Shown piece after piece: positions 7,307 through 26,549 of a DNA stretch of 35,360 nt. The notes under the pieces were generated by a model. The model had not been told where the DNA came from. It saw nothing but the letters and a program-made list of their open reading frames with translations, and searched no databases. Made by a program: the position numbers and the translations under genes. The stretch comes from Calditrichota bacterium (GTDB lineage Bacteria; Calditrichota; Calditrichia; Calditrichales; J004): contig JAJRVW010000117.1 of NCBI GenBank assembly GCA_024277115.1, forward strand, positions 1 through 35,360. Direction: 5' to 3'. Position 1 is the stretch's first letter; each line of letters begins with the position of its first letter.

Positions 7307-7485
7307 CGCGATGGAATATCTCTGCTGTCTAAAAAAAAATCTCCTCAAATTTTTTACTTTCAAAAAGATTGAATATTTTGTGATACAATCGTGTTATACA
7401 AAATTGGAAATCAATCGGGACAAGGCTTAACTTGCCTCCTTCCAAAAATAAAATCAAAATATACAAATATAAGCCTGGAGCGGAG

Positions 7486-10400
7486 ATGTCGTCATCAATT
7501 AATCTGGAATGGAAAAAAGGAATCTGTGGAATCTGTCCGGCGGGCTGCTGGATTGAAGCGGGTATGAAAGATGGAAAAATGGTCGATATCCGCGCCGATA
7601 AAAGCCATCAGCTGGGCATGATTTGCCGGCGGGGCGAACATGCGCCGGAGATGATCTATTCCGAAAACCGTTTAAAATATCCCATGAAACGTATCGGGCC
7701 CAAAGGCAGCACCGGTCCTGAAAATTTTGAGCGTATCAGCTGGGACGAGGCCTACGAGATAATCGTTGAAAATTTAAATAAAATCAAGGCGGAGTCGGGC
7801 CCTGAAGCGGTTTCCATTTATACCGGGCGCGGCTCTTTTGAGCTCTCTCTTTGTGATATGTTCCAGCCTAAAGGCGTGGCTGTTTCCTCTGCCTCCAACG
7901 TTTTATTTCCCTTTGGCTCGCCCAACACGATGGGCGTGGGCGCGCTCTGTTATGTCTCCTTTGCCATGATCGCCCCGCATGTTACCATGGGCCGCATGCT
8001 GGTTAATATGTTCACCGATATGGAAAATGCCGAGATGTTGGTTGTCTGGGGTGCCAACCCGGCCACCGATTCCCCGCCGCTGGATATGTACCGCCTGGAA
8101 AACGCGGCAAAAAGGGGTTGTGATCTGGTCGTAATCGATCCCCGCCATACGGAAACGGCCACACGCACCGGCGCCGAGTGGGTTGCTATCCGGCCAGGCA
8201 CAGACGGCGCATTGGCCTTGAGCATGATCGAAGTGATGCTTGATGAGGAATTATACGATGAGGATTTTGCCGAAAACTGGACGCATGGTTTTGACGAACT
8301 GAAAACCTACACACAACATTTCCGGCCCGAGGTGGTGGAGAAAATCACAGGTGTCCCCGCGGAGAAAATCCGTGATTTGGCGCGCCGTATTTGTAAGGCC
8401 ACGGGGGCTGCACCGGTCATGTATACCGGGTTGGAGTATTCCAATAGCGGGATTCAGGCCATCCGCGCTGTGCATACTTTGTTTGCGCTTGCCGGCCATC
8501 TGGATACGCCGGGCGGGATAGGACTGGCCATGAACGATACGCATTTTCCCATCAACCGCTCCTGCAACCAGGAAAACCCCAATCTGGATTTGGCCGTTGC
8601 CCGCGACAAGGTGCCCATTTACAGTGATTACCGGGGCGAATCCCACGCCAGTGGTTTGGTGGACGCGGTTCTGAATGAAGACCCTTATAAAATACGCGGC
8701 CTGGTAATCCACGGCGCTTCCTTGCTTACGAGCTGGCCGCAGACACCCATCTGGCGGGAAACCCTCTCTAAGCTGGATTTTCAGGTCTGTATCGATCGCC
8801 AAATGACCGCCGATGCTGCCTATGCCGATGTTGTCCTCCCGGCCACAACTATGTTTGAGATTGATTCCTACATGGTTTACGGGCCCATTTTCAGGCTGCG
8901 TGAAAAACTGGTGGAACCGGTCGGGGAAGCGCGCAACGATTATTTGATCATGGCCGAACTGGCAAAGCGCCTGGGCTATGGTCACCTCTATCCGCAAAGC
9001 GAAAAAGAGTTGCTGGATTTTGCCCTTCAGGGATCAGGTTATTCCGTGCAGGATGTAAAAGATGCCGGCGGCTGGGTGCAGGGCGATATTCCGATGATGG
9101 AATATAAGAAATGGCAAAAAGGCAGCCTGCGCAAAGATGGCAAACCCGGTTTTGAAACTCCGACAGGCAAATTTGAAATATTTTCCACCGTGCTGGATGA
9201 CTATGGCTACGAGCCGTTGCCCAAATACACCGAGCCCATCGAAGGGCCACAAGCCGCGCCCGATGTGGCGAAAGATTTTCCACTCGTGTTTAATTCCGGC
9301 GCCCGGCCGCACACGGATTTCCGCTCGCAGCACCACGGCATAAAAGGCCTTAATAAAGATAATCCCGAGCCAACTGTGGAGCTTAATGCGAAAGATGCCC
9401 AAAACCGAGGCATTGAAAATGGCGATTTAGTGGAAGTGCGCACGCCGCGCGGGGCGGTTCCTTTTAGAGCGCGGATTTCTGAAAATATCATCAAAGGCGC
9501 GGTGGAGTGTAATATGGGCGGTGGCACACCGGTTGGCCCCAAAGCCTGGCAAAAATGGAATGTAAACGAGTTGACTGATCTCTCTAATTATGATGAAATC
9601 TCCGGGTTTCCGGTTTACAAATCACTGCTTTGCGAAGTGGTCAAAATCGAAAAGGGCAGCGAAGAGATAAAATCGCGTTTAAAAGAAAATGAAAATGTGT
9701 GCGGTGTACAGTTTAACCTCGGTGGCAATGGCCGTAAAAAATCAATAAATCAGAAAAGAATCTACCTGGACAATAATGCCACAACCAGAGTGGCCGATGC
9801 GGTTCGTGAAGCGATGCAGCCCTATCTGGATCATGTGCATGGCAATCCTTCCAGCATTCATGGCGCAGGGCGGGATGCCAAAGACGCGGTGGAAAATGCG
9901 CGGCGTTCTGTGGCAAAACTGCTTAATACCAAACCCCGGCGGATCGTTTTTACGGGCAGCGGCTCGGAGGCCGATAATATGGCCTTAAAGGGCATTGCTT
10001 TCACACATCGCGCGGAAGGCCATCACATCATTACCACAAAAATTGAACACCCGGCCATTTTACGCAGTTGTGAATTTCTCGAAAAGATCGGCTATAAAGT
10101 CACTTACCTGGATGTGGATCCGCATGGTTCTATCACGCCGAAGGTATTAAAAGCGGCCTTTACGGATGATACCATTCTTGTTTCGATAATGATGGCCAAT
10201 AATGAGACGGGCACCATCCTGCCTATCAAAGAACTGGCCAGGGTTACCCACGAGCGCGGGGCGATTTTTCACACGGACGCGGTGCAGGCTGTTGGCAAAA
10301 TAAAGGTGGATGTGGAAGCTTTGGATGTGGATTTACTCAGCCTTTCCGCCCATAAATTCCACGGCCCCAAAGGGATGGGCGCTTTGTATGTAAAAAAAGG

Positions 10401-10911
10401 GATTACGCTGGAGCCGCTTGTTCACGGCGGCGGACAGGAGCACGGATTAAGGGCGGGAACCGAAAATGTGCCGTCGATTGTCGGGTTGGGCAAGGCCGCC
10501 GAACTGGCCATCCTGGATATTGAGAAATCAGCCAGAATGCAAATGTTGCGCGATAAATTGCAAGAGGGCATAATGCGATTAATCCCCGAAGCAAAGTTAA
10601 ACGGGGCGGTTGAGGAGCGCCTGCCCAACACACTGAATATGATCCTGCCTGATTTAAGGGGCGAGTCGTTAGTTGTCGCCATGGATCAGCACGGTATTTC
10701 TTTTTCATCGGGATCAGCCTGTAAATCGGGATCGCCCAAACCAACGCATGTATTGATGGCCATGGGGCGGAGCGAGGAAGAAGCCCATTGCGCGGTACGG
10801 CTTTCTTTAAATCATGAAACTACGGAAGAAGATATTGACCGGGTGCTTGAAGAGTTAAAACATGTTTTGGATGAGATCGCTACAACCGTACGGTTTTTGC
10901 CATGCAAGTAG
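7486..10911 (+). CDS. Fusion of molybdopterin oxidoreductase and NifS/IscS-type cysteine desulfurase
   Basis: An 1141-residue protein with two complete enzymes in one frame. Residues 1-~735 are a DMSO-reductase-family molybdoenzyme: [4Fe-4S] cysteines C14, C17, C21 and C47; a likely Mo-ligating C155 in GALCYVS after SPNTMG; bis-MGD binding segments (VVWGANPATDSPP, VVIDPRHTETA); and a C-terminal molydop-binding domain. Polysulfide, thiosulfate and arsenate reductase-like subunits are the nearest in style. Residues ~757-1141 are a whole class-V cysteine desulfurase: YLDNNATT, the PLP lysine K957 in SAHKFHG, and the sulfur-carrying C1079 in SSGSACKSGS. The ATG at 7486 has a GGAGCGGAG box; the frame is open to a TTG at 7432. 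No internal start with a ribosome site precedes the desulfurase part. GC content is visibly higher than in neighbouring genes. No iron-sulfur or membrane partner subunits lie beside it. The desulfurase may deliver the sulfido ligand to Mo; that is inference. Confidence 0.92.
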   Translation: MSSSINLEWKKGICGICPAGCWIEAGMKDGKMVDIRADKSHQLGMICRRGEHAPEMIYSENRLKYPMKRIGPKGSTGPENFERISWDEAYEIIVENLNKIKAESGPEAVSIYTGRGSFELSLCDMFQPKGVAVSSASNVLFPFGSPNTMGVGALCYVSFAMIAPHVTMGRMLVNMFTDMENAEMLVVWGANPATDSPPLDMYRLENAAKRGCDLVVIDPRHTETATRTGAEWVAIRPGTDGALALSMIEVMLDEELYDEDFAENWTHGFDELKTYTQHFRPEVVEKITGVPAEKIRDLARRICKATGAAPVMYTGLEYSNSGIQAIRAVHTLFALAGHLDTPGGIGLAMNDTHFPINRSCNQENPNLDLAVARDKVPIYSDYRGESHASGLVDAVLNEDPYKIRGLVIHGASLLTSWPQTPIWRETLSKLDFQVCIDRQMTADAAYADVVLPATTMFEIDSYMVYGPIFRLREKLVEPVGEARNDYLIMAELAKRLGYGHLYPQSEKELLDFALQGSGYSVQDVKDAGGWVQGDIPMMEYKKWQKGSLRKDGKPGFETPTGKFEIFSTVLDDYGYEPLPKYTEPIEGPQAAPDVAKDFPLVFNSGARPHTDFRSQHHGIKGLNKDNPEPTVELNAKDAQNRGIENGDLVEVRTPRGAVPFRARISENIIKGAVECNMGGGTPVGPKAWQKWNVNELTDLSNYDEISGFPVYKSLLCEVVKIEKGSEEIKSRLKENENVCGVQFNLGGNGRKKSINQKRIYLDNNATTRVADAVREAMQPYLDHVHGNPSSIHGAGRDAKDAVENARRSVAKLLNTKPRRIVFTGSGSEADNMALKGIAFTHRAEGHHIITTKIEHPAILRSCEFLEKIGYKVTYLDVDPHGSITPKVLKAAFTDDTILVSIMMANNETGTILPIKELARVTHERGAIFHTDAVQAVGKIKVDVEALDVDLLSLSAHKFHGPKGMGALYVKKGITLEPLVHGGGQEHGLRAGTENVPSIVGLGKAAELAILDIEKSARMQMLRDKLQEGIMRLIPEAKLNGAVEERLPNTLNMILPDLRGESLVVAMDQHGISFSSGSACKSGSPKPTHVLMAMGRSEEEAHCAVRLSLNHETTEEDIDRVLEELKHVLDEIATTVRFLPCK

Positions 10912-23759: not shown

Positions 23760-24572
23760 GTGTTTTTAATTTTTCAATGGCTGGTTTTAGTTATTTACGC
23801 CATTTCTACCGTTTTTTATTGGCAAGATTTTATAAACCACAAATCCGGTGAAAATAAGAAAGCACAGAAGTGGTTTATTACTGCTGTGTCTGCAAATTTT
23901 TTGCAGATAATTTATTTTATAGTTGAGACAGGCCGGATTCCGATTGCAACGGTGGACGAGGCGATAGGTACATTTGTATGGATAACCGCCACTTTATATT
24001 TGGCTATCGAGTTTAAGTTGAAAGAGCGTTCCCAAGGCGCTTTAATCTTATCGGTAATACTTCTCTTTCTTTTAAAAACGGTTATGTCGCCACATACGCC
24101 GCAGGAGATCGCCCCCATTTTATATGATATAAAATTTGAATTGCATGTATTTGCCATGTTATTGGGTTATAGCGGGTTTACTCTTTCTGCAATGTCAGGT
24201 ATTTTACATTTATTACTTTACCGGGAAATACAAAAAAAAGAATTGGGGATTTTTTTCCGCAGGTTACCATCTTTAGCCTATTTTGAACGCATAAGCGATT
24301 TTGCAATAAATTTTGGCCTCATTTTCTCTACACTTGGTTTTGCGCTCGGTTTTTATTTTGCCACAATTGTATGGACGGTTTCATTTTATCTTGATCCAAA
24401 GATAATTACAGTCTTGATAACATCTCTAATTTATTTCACTTATTTTATTGGCCGAAAATTAGGGGCAATCAGAGGGCAGAGGGCAGCGCTTCTTTCCGTT
24501 GTCGGATTTATTTTAATCCTATTTTCGTTTTTAATTGTTTCCCAGTTAATACCGGGCGCACACCAGTTCTAA
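23760..24572 (+). CDS. CcsA/HemX-family cytochrome c assembly-type membrane protein
   Basis: A 270-residue integral membrane protein with about eight helices, starting at GTG behind GGAGGG. It belongs to the CcsA/HemX (cytochrome c assembly) family: periplasmic loop PIATVDEAIGTFVWITA, conserved His in KFELHVFAMLLGYSGFTLSAMSG, ATIVWTVSFYLDPKIITVLITSLIYFTYF at the core loop, and a late helix ending IPGAHQF (given as landmarks). The tryptophan-rich WWD motif of heme-handling CcsA is largely absent, so HemX-like is more apt than true CcsA. In many bacteria hemX stands directly before hemA. Here the next gene, 34 bases on, begins with a HemA-like domain, so the pair keeps that order. Confidence 0.8.
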   Translation: MFLIFQWLVLVIYAISTVFYWQDFINHKSGENKKAQKWFITAVSANFLQIIYFIVETGRIPIATVDEAIGTFVWITATLYLAIEFKLKERSQGALILSVILLFLLKTVMSPHTPQEIAPILYDIKFELHVFAMLLGYSGFTLSAMSGILHLLLYREIQKKELGIFFRRLPSLAYFERISDFAINFGLIFSTLGFALGFYFATIVWTVSFYLDPKIITVLITSLIYFTYFIGRKLGAIRGQRAALLSVVGFILILFSFLIVSQLIPGAHQF

Positions 24573-24606: not shown

Positions 24607-26549
24607 ATGGCTTTAAAAGCGTTAAAATTTTTCCCTCAAAAAGTAAGGACATCCATCGGCCTCTCTGCCTTTGGTACAGATGGCCTCAAAGAGGTGCAGA
24701 GGCATCTGGGATTAGACGAAATATTGCTTGTACATGGAACAAGCTGTATGACCCTTTTCATGTTCTCAGAAGAAATTGTACCACAAAAAGAAGATATAAT
24801 TGAAACCCTTTCCCACACTTTTAAAGAGACAATCAGCCCCGTTACAGAAGCCCAACTTATCGAAGGCCAGCAAGCTGTAAGCTATTTCTTTATACTTGCA
24901 AATGGCATGGATAATTCTTCGTGCCAGCAAAACTCAGTAAAATCCTTTGTTAACGATTTTACTCTTGCCAAGCAAAGCGCCCTTATTGGCGCGGTAATTC
25001 AACGCTTATTTCAGCGGAGTATCTGGCTGCATGAGCGGGTGCGGCTTAATACAAATTATTTTAACGTCAATCTGGATATATCGGGGATTTTTTGTGAACT
25101 TTCCGGCAAAATTTTTGAGACCTTAAATCCACTTACTGTGCAGGTAGAGGGCTGTTTGCCTGAAACACATTCGGTTTTGGATGGCTTGTACCGTTCGGGG
25201 TGCAGGCGTTTTTTATTTAGTGGTGATGCCGAAGATTTTAAATGCCTGGTAGAGAAATGTGCCTCACCTTTAAATATAATTTTCTATAAAAATAAACTAT
25301 CAGATGAAACGGATATTTTTATAAATAATAATGCAGGGTCAACACTTCTCGATATTGCTTCGTTAAAACACCGAATGGCCGGGAAAAATAACGCGCCATT
25401 TTTAATTCTCGACAGTACGGGGAAATCATATAACCAAAAATTGACCCATAAATTTTACAGCGCCTATTTTTATAATTATACGGATCTTGAACGGGCGATT
25501 GAAAAAAACAAGATTGAGCAGGAAAAAATTTTTAAAGAAGTAGCGCCGTGGATAAAAAATGAAGTAGACAAGTTTTATGCCTGGCTGTCCAGCGATTCAC
25601 GCTATCGGTTTATGGGGATAATTGGCCGTTCGCCTAAAATGCAAAATTTATTTGAGATAATTTCTCGCATATCCCAAACAGATATTACCGTTCTGATCCA
25701 GGGGGCAAGCGGTACGGGTAAAGAGTTGGTTTCGCATGCGGTACATAAATTAAGCTCACGCGCCCAAAATCCTTTTGTTGTTGTAAACTGCGGCGCCATC
25801 CCGGAGAATTTACTGGAAAGCGAACTTTTTGGCCATGTACGCGGATCCTTTACCGGTGCTGTTTCGGATAAAAAAGGGATGTTTTTTGAAGCGGACCAGG
25901 GGACGATCTTTTTAGATGAGATTGCCGAATTGCCGCAACAGTTACAAGTGAAGCTTTTGCGTTTTTTACAGGAAGGGGATATTAAGCCGGTGGGCAGTAA
26001 CGCAACCCTTAAAGTTGATGTACGTGTGATTGCGGCCACTAATAAAAACTTATATGAAATGGTCAAACAAGGCGGCTTTCGCAGTGATCTTTTTATCGTT
26101 TAAATGTGATGATGTTAGAGCTGCCGTCGCTAAATGAACGAAAAGAAGATATTATTATACTGGCAGATTATTTTTTAAAAAAGTATGCGCGAAAATTTAA
26201 AAAAGAAGTCTCGGGGTTCTCTAAAAAAACGATTCAATACTTCCTTGCTTATGATTGGCCGGGGAATATCCGTGAACTGGAAAATGCCGTTGAACATGCC
26301 GTGGCTTTATCCCTCGGAACCGAAGTAATTGAGTTTGATTTACCCCAATCCATCCGTGGTGCCCGTATAACTGTTTCCAATAAAATGAGCTTTGCAAATA
26401 TCACCTTAAAAGATGTTGAAAAAAATCATATCCTCAATACTTTAAATTCCTCAAAATGGGATTATGATAAAGCCTGTAAAATTTTGGGCATTGGGCGCAC
26501 AACTTTATGGCGAAAATTAAAAGAATATGATGTAAAAGATATTCCATAA
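24607..26549 (+). pseudogene. Sigma-54 activator with a degenerate glutamyl-tRNA reductase (HemA-like) sensor domain; one-base frameshift
   Basis: Residues 1-~330 follow glutamyl-tRNA reductase from end to end. LGLDEILLVHGTSCM holds a Cys (C47) at the catalytic place, but the NR after it is lost. EGQQAVSYFFILANGMD (86-102) matches EG.QAV.YLF..A.GLD, yet the GEPQI motif is gone. RLFQRSIWLHERVRLNT (133-149) and the C-terminal dimer helix (~283-328) fit. The NADPH glycine motif is replaced by EGCLPET. So it is probably not an enzyme. Residues ~336 onward are a sigma-54 AAA+ domain: Walker A GASGTGK (366-372), GSFTGA (413-418, a GAFTGA variant) and Walker B GTIFLDE (432-438). After FRSDLF the frame stops at 26101. 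One extra T in the run at 26090-26094 restores YRLNVMMLELPSLNERKEDI and the Fis-type helix-turn-helix (YDKACKILGIGRTTLWRKLK), giving 647 residues. No receiver domain is present. Confidence 0.85.

Follow-up and report, generated by a model that had tools for sequence, protein, structure and literature searches.

When a molybdopterin oxidoreductase runs on, within one reading frame, into a complete cysteine desulfurase, it must be asked whether the fusion is genuine and what such a protein would do with the sulfur it releases. This question is raised by a gene in a 35,360-nucleotide stretch (hereafter the window) of a Calditrichota draft assembly (GCA_024277115.1). The gene forms one open frame on the forward strand, from the ATG at 7486 to the stop at 10911, and encodes 1141 aa. 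An in-frame TTG at 7432 is a possible longer start, but the ATG is favored because the GGAG upstream suits it (Table 1). Inspection of the frame from residue 700 to residue 776 revealed no ATG, and the three in-frame GTGs in this region each lacked an obvious ribosome site, which bears out the statement of an earlier note on this DNA that no internal start with a ribosome site separates the halves. GC and third-position GC were similar in both halves (0.53/0.51 and 0.59/0.55, respectively).

Pfam placed Molybdop_Fe4S4 at residues 8-59, Molybdopterin at 62-495, Molydop_binding at 606-713, and Aminotran_5 at 759-1120. The N-terminal half belongs to the DMSO-reductase family (bis-MGD, 4Fe4S), and its best solved relative, in both sequence and fold searches, was acetylene hydratase (2e7z). 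The C-terminal half has the fold of IscS/NFS1/NifS (TM-score about 0.9 on the target, with IscS/NFS1 returned by the fold search), and its top NCBIfam match was NifS (TIGR03402), slightly under the cut-off at 516 versus 531 bits; judged by sequence, it appears related to stand-alone NifS but belongs to a separate, fused branch. No entry listed by the fold search covered both halves. The four FeS cysteines, Cys155, and Lys957 were invariant across 74 aligned sequences, and hence these catalytic residues are not chance occurrences; Cys1079 was found in 73 of the 73 sequences that reach its position, and the cysteine at position 1140 in all 71 that extend to the C-terminal end. Thus, the recognizable catalytic residues listed earlier (C14, C17, C21, C47, C155, K957, and C1079) are all present in the window protein, although that inventory had overlooked the penultimate Cys1140.

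Table 1. Features of the probable metallopterin-dependent ergothioneine synthase (MES) locus, in window coordinates.
Feature	Position	Strand	Basis
Gene for probable MES	7486..10911	+	Family searches; 61% identity to L080 over 1133 columns
Putative ribosome-binding site GGAG	7477..7480	+	5 nt upstream of ATG 7486; from sequence
N-terminal bis-MGD metallopterin module with 4Fe4S site, residues 1-720	7486..9645	+	Pfam, invariant residues, 2e7z
FeS Cys14/17/21/47, N-terminal module	within 7486..9645	+	Invariant in 74 sequences
Mo/W ligand Cys155	7948-7950	+	Invariant in 74 sequences
Interdomain linker, residues 721-757	9646..9756	+	Variable in alignment; 737-754 predicted disordered, pLDDT < 50
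C-terminal group I cysteine desulfurase, residues 758-1141	9757..10908	+	Pfam, NCBIfam, conservation, fold
His855, PLP Lys957 (10354-10356), persulfide Cys1079 (10720-10722)	desulfurase half	+	
Tail RFLPCK with putative relay Cys1140 (10903-10905)	10891..10908	+	Counterpart of CaMES Cys1135

We also noted, at 24607-26549 (+) of the window, an NtrC-type sigma-54 regulator whose atypical N-terminal region bears a weak resemblance to HemA (glutamyl-tRNA reductase; 44 bits). Beside it, at 23760-24572, is a CcsA/HemX-like gene for cytochrome c assembly. The regulator is split into two ORFs by a frameshift near 26,090, and relatives have intact copies of 621-647 aa.

The fused architecture proved to be real. 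It was present in 11 of 40 Calditrichota genomes, at 61-89% identity where complete, and when public genome contigs were searched with the Mo half, 236 relatives were confirmed, of which the best 80, those retained, extended the same domain order to about 20 phyla. Among these 80, the desulfurase followed the Mo half in every locus that reached the C-terminal half, and several fused relatives sit on single-contig chromosomes. Separate genes in relatives, named in the earlier note as the finding that would point to stop loss or sequence error, were looked for and not found. Specifically, no unfused protein in the phylum exceeded 34% identity, leaving a gap between MES (65% or more) and ordinary unfused molybdoenzymes (34% or less), the frames of the latter being too short for the fusion; this search covered the phylum and, outside it, the best 80 of 236 relatives, so that remote unfused forms may still occur elsewhere. 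We give no credence to the idea that stop loss, frameshift, or misassembly created the fusion: the host assembly is indeed a draft of 255 contigs, and breaks do occur in some relatives (L092 is truncated at a contig end, L039 and L082 contain runs of N, L014 and L073, which are one record, carry a frameshift, and L024 has an internal TAG in the N-terminal half), but every complete frame among the relatives, which span about 20 phyla, is fused, and the published enzyme discussed below is likewise one polypeptide (PMC9516567). A reading of the TGA in L014 as selenocysteine was ruled out, the frameshift lying in the desulfurase half, away from the metal ligand.

A literature search by the domain names of the fusion returned nothing relevant; EgtD, the histidine methyltransferase, however, was a recurrent neighbor, and through it we arrived at a published enzyme of this architecture, the metallopterin-dependent ergothioneine synthase, MES (Beliaeva & Seebeck 2022, PMC9516567). 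MES, described in 2022 as the first known case of C-S bond formation by a Mo/W enzyme, makes the antioxidant ergothioneine from trimethylhistidine (TMH) and cysteine sulfur, as shown for CaMES (PMC9516567). The locus of Caldithrix abyssi HyVt-577 (L080) encodes 1136 aa and carries all nine CaMES residues (C14, C17, C21, C48, C153, K952, C1074, C1097, and C1135), and, because its length and these nine residue numbers match the publication, it is either CaMES itself or a protein that these features do not distinguish from CaMES. The window counterparts are C14, C17, C21, C47, C155, K957, C1079, C1102, and C1140, and all nine positions were invariant or nearly so across the 74 sequences. The window protein thus shares with CaMES its domain order, its length (1141 against 1136 aa), the nine key residues, and an EgtD in the genome, and differs in overall sequence (61% identity to L080), in the tail (RFIPCR in CaMES), in having egtD on another contig, and in clade membership (see below). 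Identity and fold by themselves leave the substrate unfixed. On the sequence evidence together with the EgtD association, the window gene very probably encodes an MES, and by analogy its product would act like CaMES. It is therefore a further well-conserved member of a known enzyme type rather than a new system, and of low surprise.

Several characterized systems share parts of this design. Acetylene hydratase of Pelobacter/Syntrophotalea acetylenica resembles the N-terminal half in its 4Fe4S cluster and bis-MGD with a Cys ligand, but has no desulfurase and hydrates acetylene without net redox change. Group I desulfurases of the NifS/IscS type are 41-43% identical to the C-terminal half and have the same fold, PLP lysine, and persulfide cysteine loop; the MES desulfurase, unlike these, is joined to the acceptor that it serves and terminates in a conserved Cys-Lys/Arg tail that would act as a relay. 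The rhodanese-like EanB and the O2-dependent EgtB use the same EgtD-made TMH and yield the same product (PMC9516567), although the enzymes and their sulfur donors are unrelated to those of MES. Finally, in the eukaryotic Moco sulfurase (ABA3 type) and in FdhD-IscS, as in MES, a PLP desulfurase hands sulfur to a Mo cofactor; these mature other enzymes once, whereas MES consumes sulfur as a substrate in every cycle (PMC9516567).

Published experiments on CaMES bear directly on the route of the sulfur. Its C-terminal module alone converts cysteine to alanine, the K952A, C1074S, and C1135S variants produced about 2000-fold less ergothioneine, and C153S produced almost none (PMC9516567). Two complementary mutants did not rescue each other, and the transfer is therefore intramolecular, while K952A retained sulfur exchange between ergothioneine and TMH (PMC9516567). 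By analogy, the C-terminal desulfurase of the window protein would convert L-cysteine to alanine, leaving a persulfide on Cys1079. Within the same chain, the sulfur would next move to Cys1140, which lies on the mobile C-terminal tail, and from there to the bis-MGD center (Mo or W) held by Cys155. TMH, supplied by an EgtD encoded elsewhere in the host genome, would take up the sulfido sulfur through its imidazole, giving ergothioneine and a reduced metal that the persulfide would resulfurate; imidazole attack on Mo=S is a proposal of the CaMES authors only (PMC9516567). The AlphaFold2 model of the window protein (mean pLDDT 87.6, pTM 0.81) fell below a pLDDT of 50 only at the first three residues, the linker at 737-754, and residues 1078-1083 and 1137-1141, so that Cys1079 and Cys1140 both lie within predicted flexible segments. 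Desulfurase loops are often mobile in general, and the low-pLDDT relay segments may fit mobile arms; judged by these flexible segments only, the modeled path from Cys1079 via Cys1140 to Mo is only suggestive. The built-in sulfur donor conceived in the earlier note agrees with the CaMES mutants and with intramolecular transfer (PMC9516567), but the maturation role assigned to it does not hold, and its alternative, coupling of cysteine-sulfur release to a sulfur redox reaction, was right as to the coupling and overlooked ergothioneine synthesis with sulfur used at each turnover. The donor would accordingly be one that supplies every turnover for C-S bond formation, and not one for formate dehydrogenase maturation.

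The distribution of EgtD accords with assignment as MES. The host has one full copy, on a contig other than that of MES (L121:5006-5974, minus strand), which is a clear relative of solved EgtD and matches the TIGR03438 equivalog at 399 bits against a cut-off of 291. Within the phylum, EgtD occurred in 11 of 11 MES genomes and 11 of 29 others (22 of 40 overall; Fisher p = 3e-4). Among the best 80 of 236 relatives, egtD was in the fetched flank of 34 loci, within 600 nt in 31 of these, and where the flank lacked it, EgtD over the cut-off was present in 42 of 46 genomes; a few genomes are common to the phylum and 80-locus sets. EgtB in the host was under the cut-off in the family search. FdhD was not found in the host, in 10 of the 11 MES genomes of the phylum, or in 20 of 39 MES genomes elsewhere, and MES therefore appears independent of it; the analogy to formate dehydrogenase and FdhD drawn earlier is not sustained. 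These data also bear on whether the protein could be a redox molybdoenzyme, formate dehydrogenase-like or other, in which the fused desulfurase only installs the sulfido ligand in place of FdhD. The N-terminal half does match TIGR01591 (formate dehydrogenase alpha), albeit at 290 bits with a cut-off of 666, and a built-in sulfurase would make sense in a host without FdhD. However, the closest relative by both sequence and fold is acetylene hydratase rather than formate dehydrogenase, and the metal-ligand cysteine is followed by Tyr and not by the His that typically follows it in formate dehydrogenases. Moreover, FdhD in 19 of the 39 other MES genomes gives no pattern of replacement, and the linkage to EgtD would be left unexplained, making this reading extremely unlikely.

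Other combinations of ergothioneine genes were observed. In G039, of the host's class, an MES partly masked by N occurs together with an EgtB over the cut-off close to EgtD, which places oxygen-dependent and oxygen-independent ergothioneine routes in one genome. G017, G019, and other members of the phylum have EgtD without MES and with EgtB under the cut-off, for which EanB, a missing contig, or another sulfurizing enzyme are candidate explanations. A DinB-like protein, judged by eye, is a common neighbor of MES in L037, L052, and L059; DinB-like domains are found in EgtB too.

Phylogenetic reconstruction resolved MES into two deep clades, of 18 and 48 rows, that were the same in the trees of both halves, highly supported in each, and had a single label change between clades, on the desulfurase tree; the halves have therefore been inherited together since before the split. 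CaMES was placed in clade I and the window protein in the larger clade II. This separation, together with ten columns, eight from the metallopterin half, that distinguish the clades nearly cleanly, could mean that clade II enzymes are MES-like but sulfurize another imidazole or histidine derivative. We consider this very unlikely, as egtD is in the flank of 17 of 56 clade II loci, EgtD was found elsewhere in most genomes searched for want of a flanking egtD, and the relay and metal residues are all unchanged. Two sequences from contigs labeled Gammaproteobacteria (L019 and L020) shared about 80% identity with the window protein in the metallopterin half and nested with Calditrichota, reflecting either recent transfer or a binning error. 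Additionally, an MES on a contig labeled Thaumarchaeota (L065:2701-4863), from a small MAG of uncertain label, had 71% identity in the Mo half and fell inside bacterial clade II.

Finally, the hosts of MES have been viewed as exclusively anaerobic (PMC9516567). The window host, by contrast, encodes over-cut-off matches to CtaD and CoxB (aa3 type) and to a CcoN-CcoO protein with CcoG (cbb3 type). Of 52 MES genomes, 13 had CtaD over the cut-off; two of these, which carry L034 and L082, are single-contig chromosomes, and another is G005, the holder of the CaMES-like L011. Only typed oxidase matches were counted here, because PF00115 alone also picks up NO reductases. Oxidase gene content falls short of proving aerobic growth, but we lean slightly toward the view that MES is not limited to strict anaerobes and serves bacteria equipped for O2 respiration, the host and other clade II members included, working alongside O2 use. 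The family is also probably larger than the 55 genomes with MES of the 2022 study (PMC9516567), given our 236 confirmed relatives, in part of which the fusion was checked. The locus thus confirms the MES fusion as an old, intact module widely shared among about 20 phyla, and its main value lies in a second deep clade for testing and in the oxygen question, since oxidases in many hosts bear on the role of ergothioneine and on the oxygen tolerance of MES.
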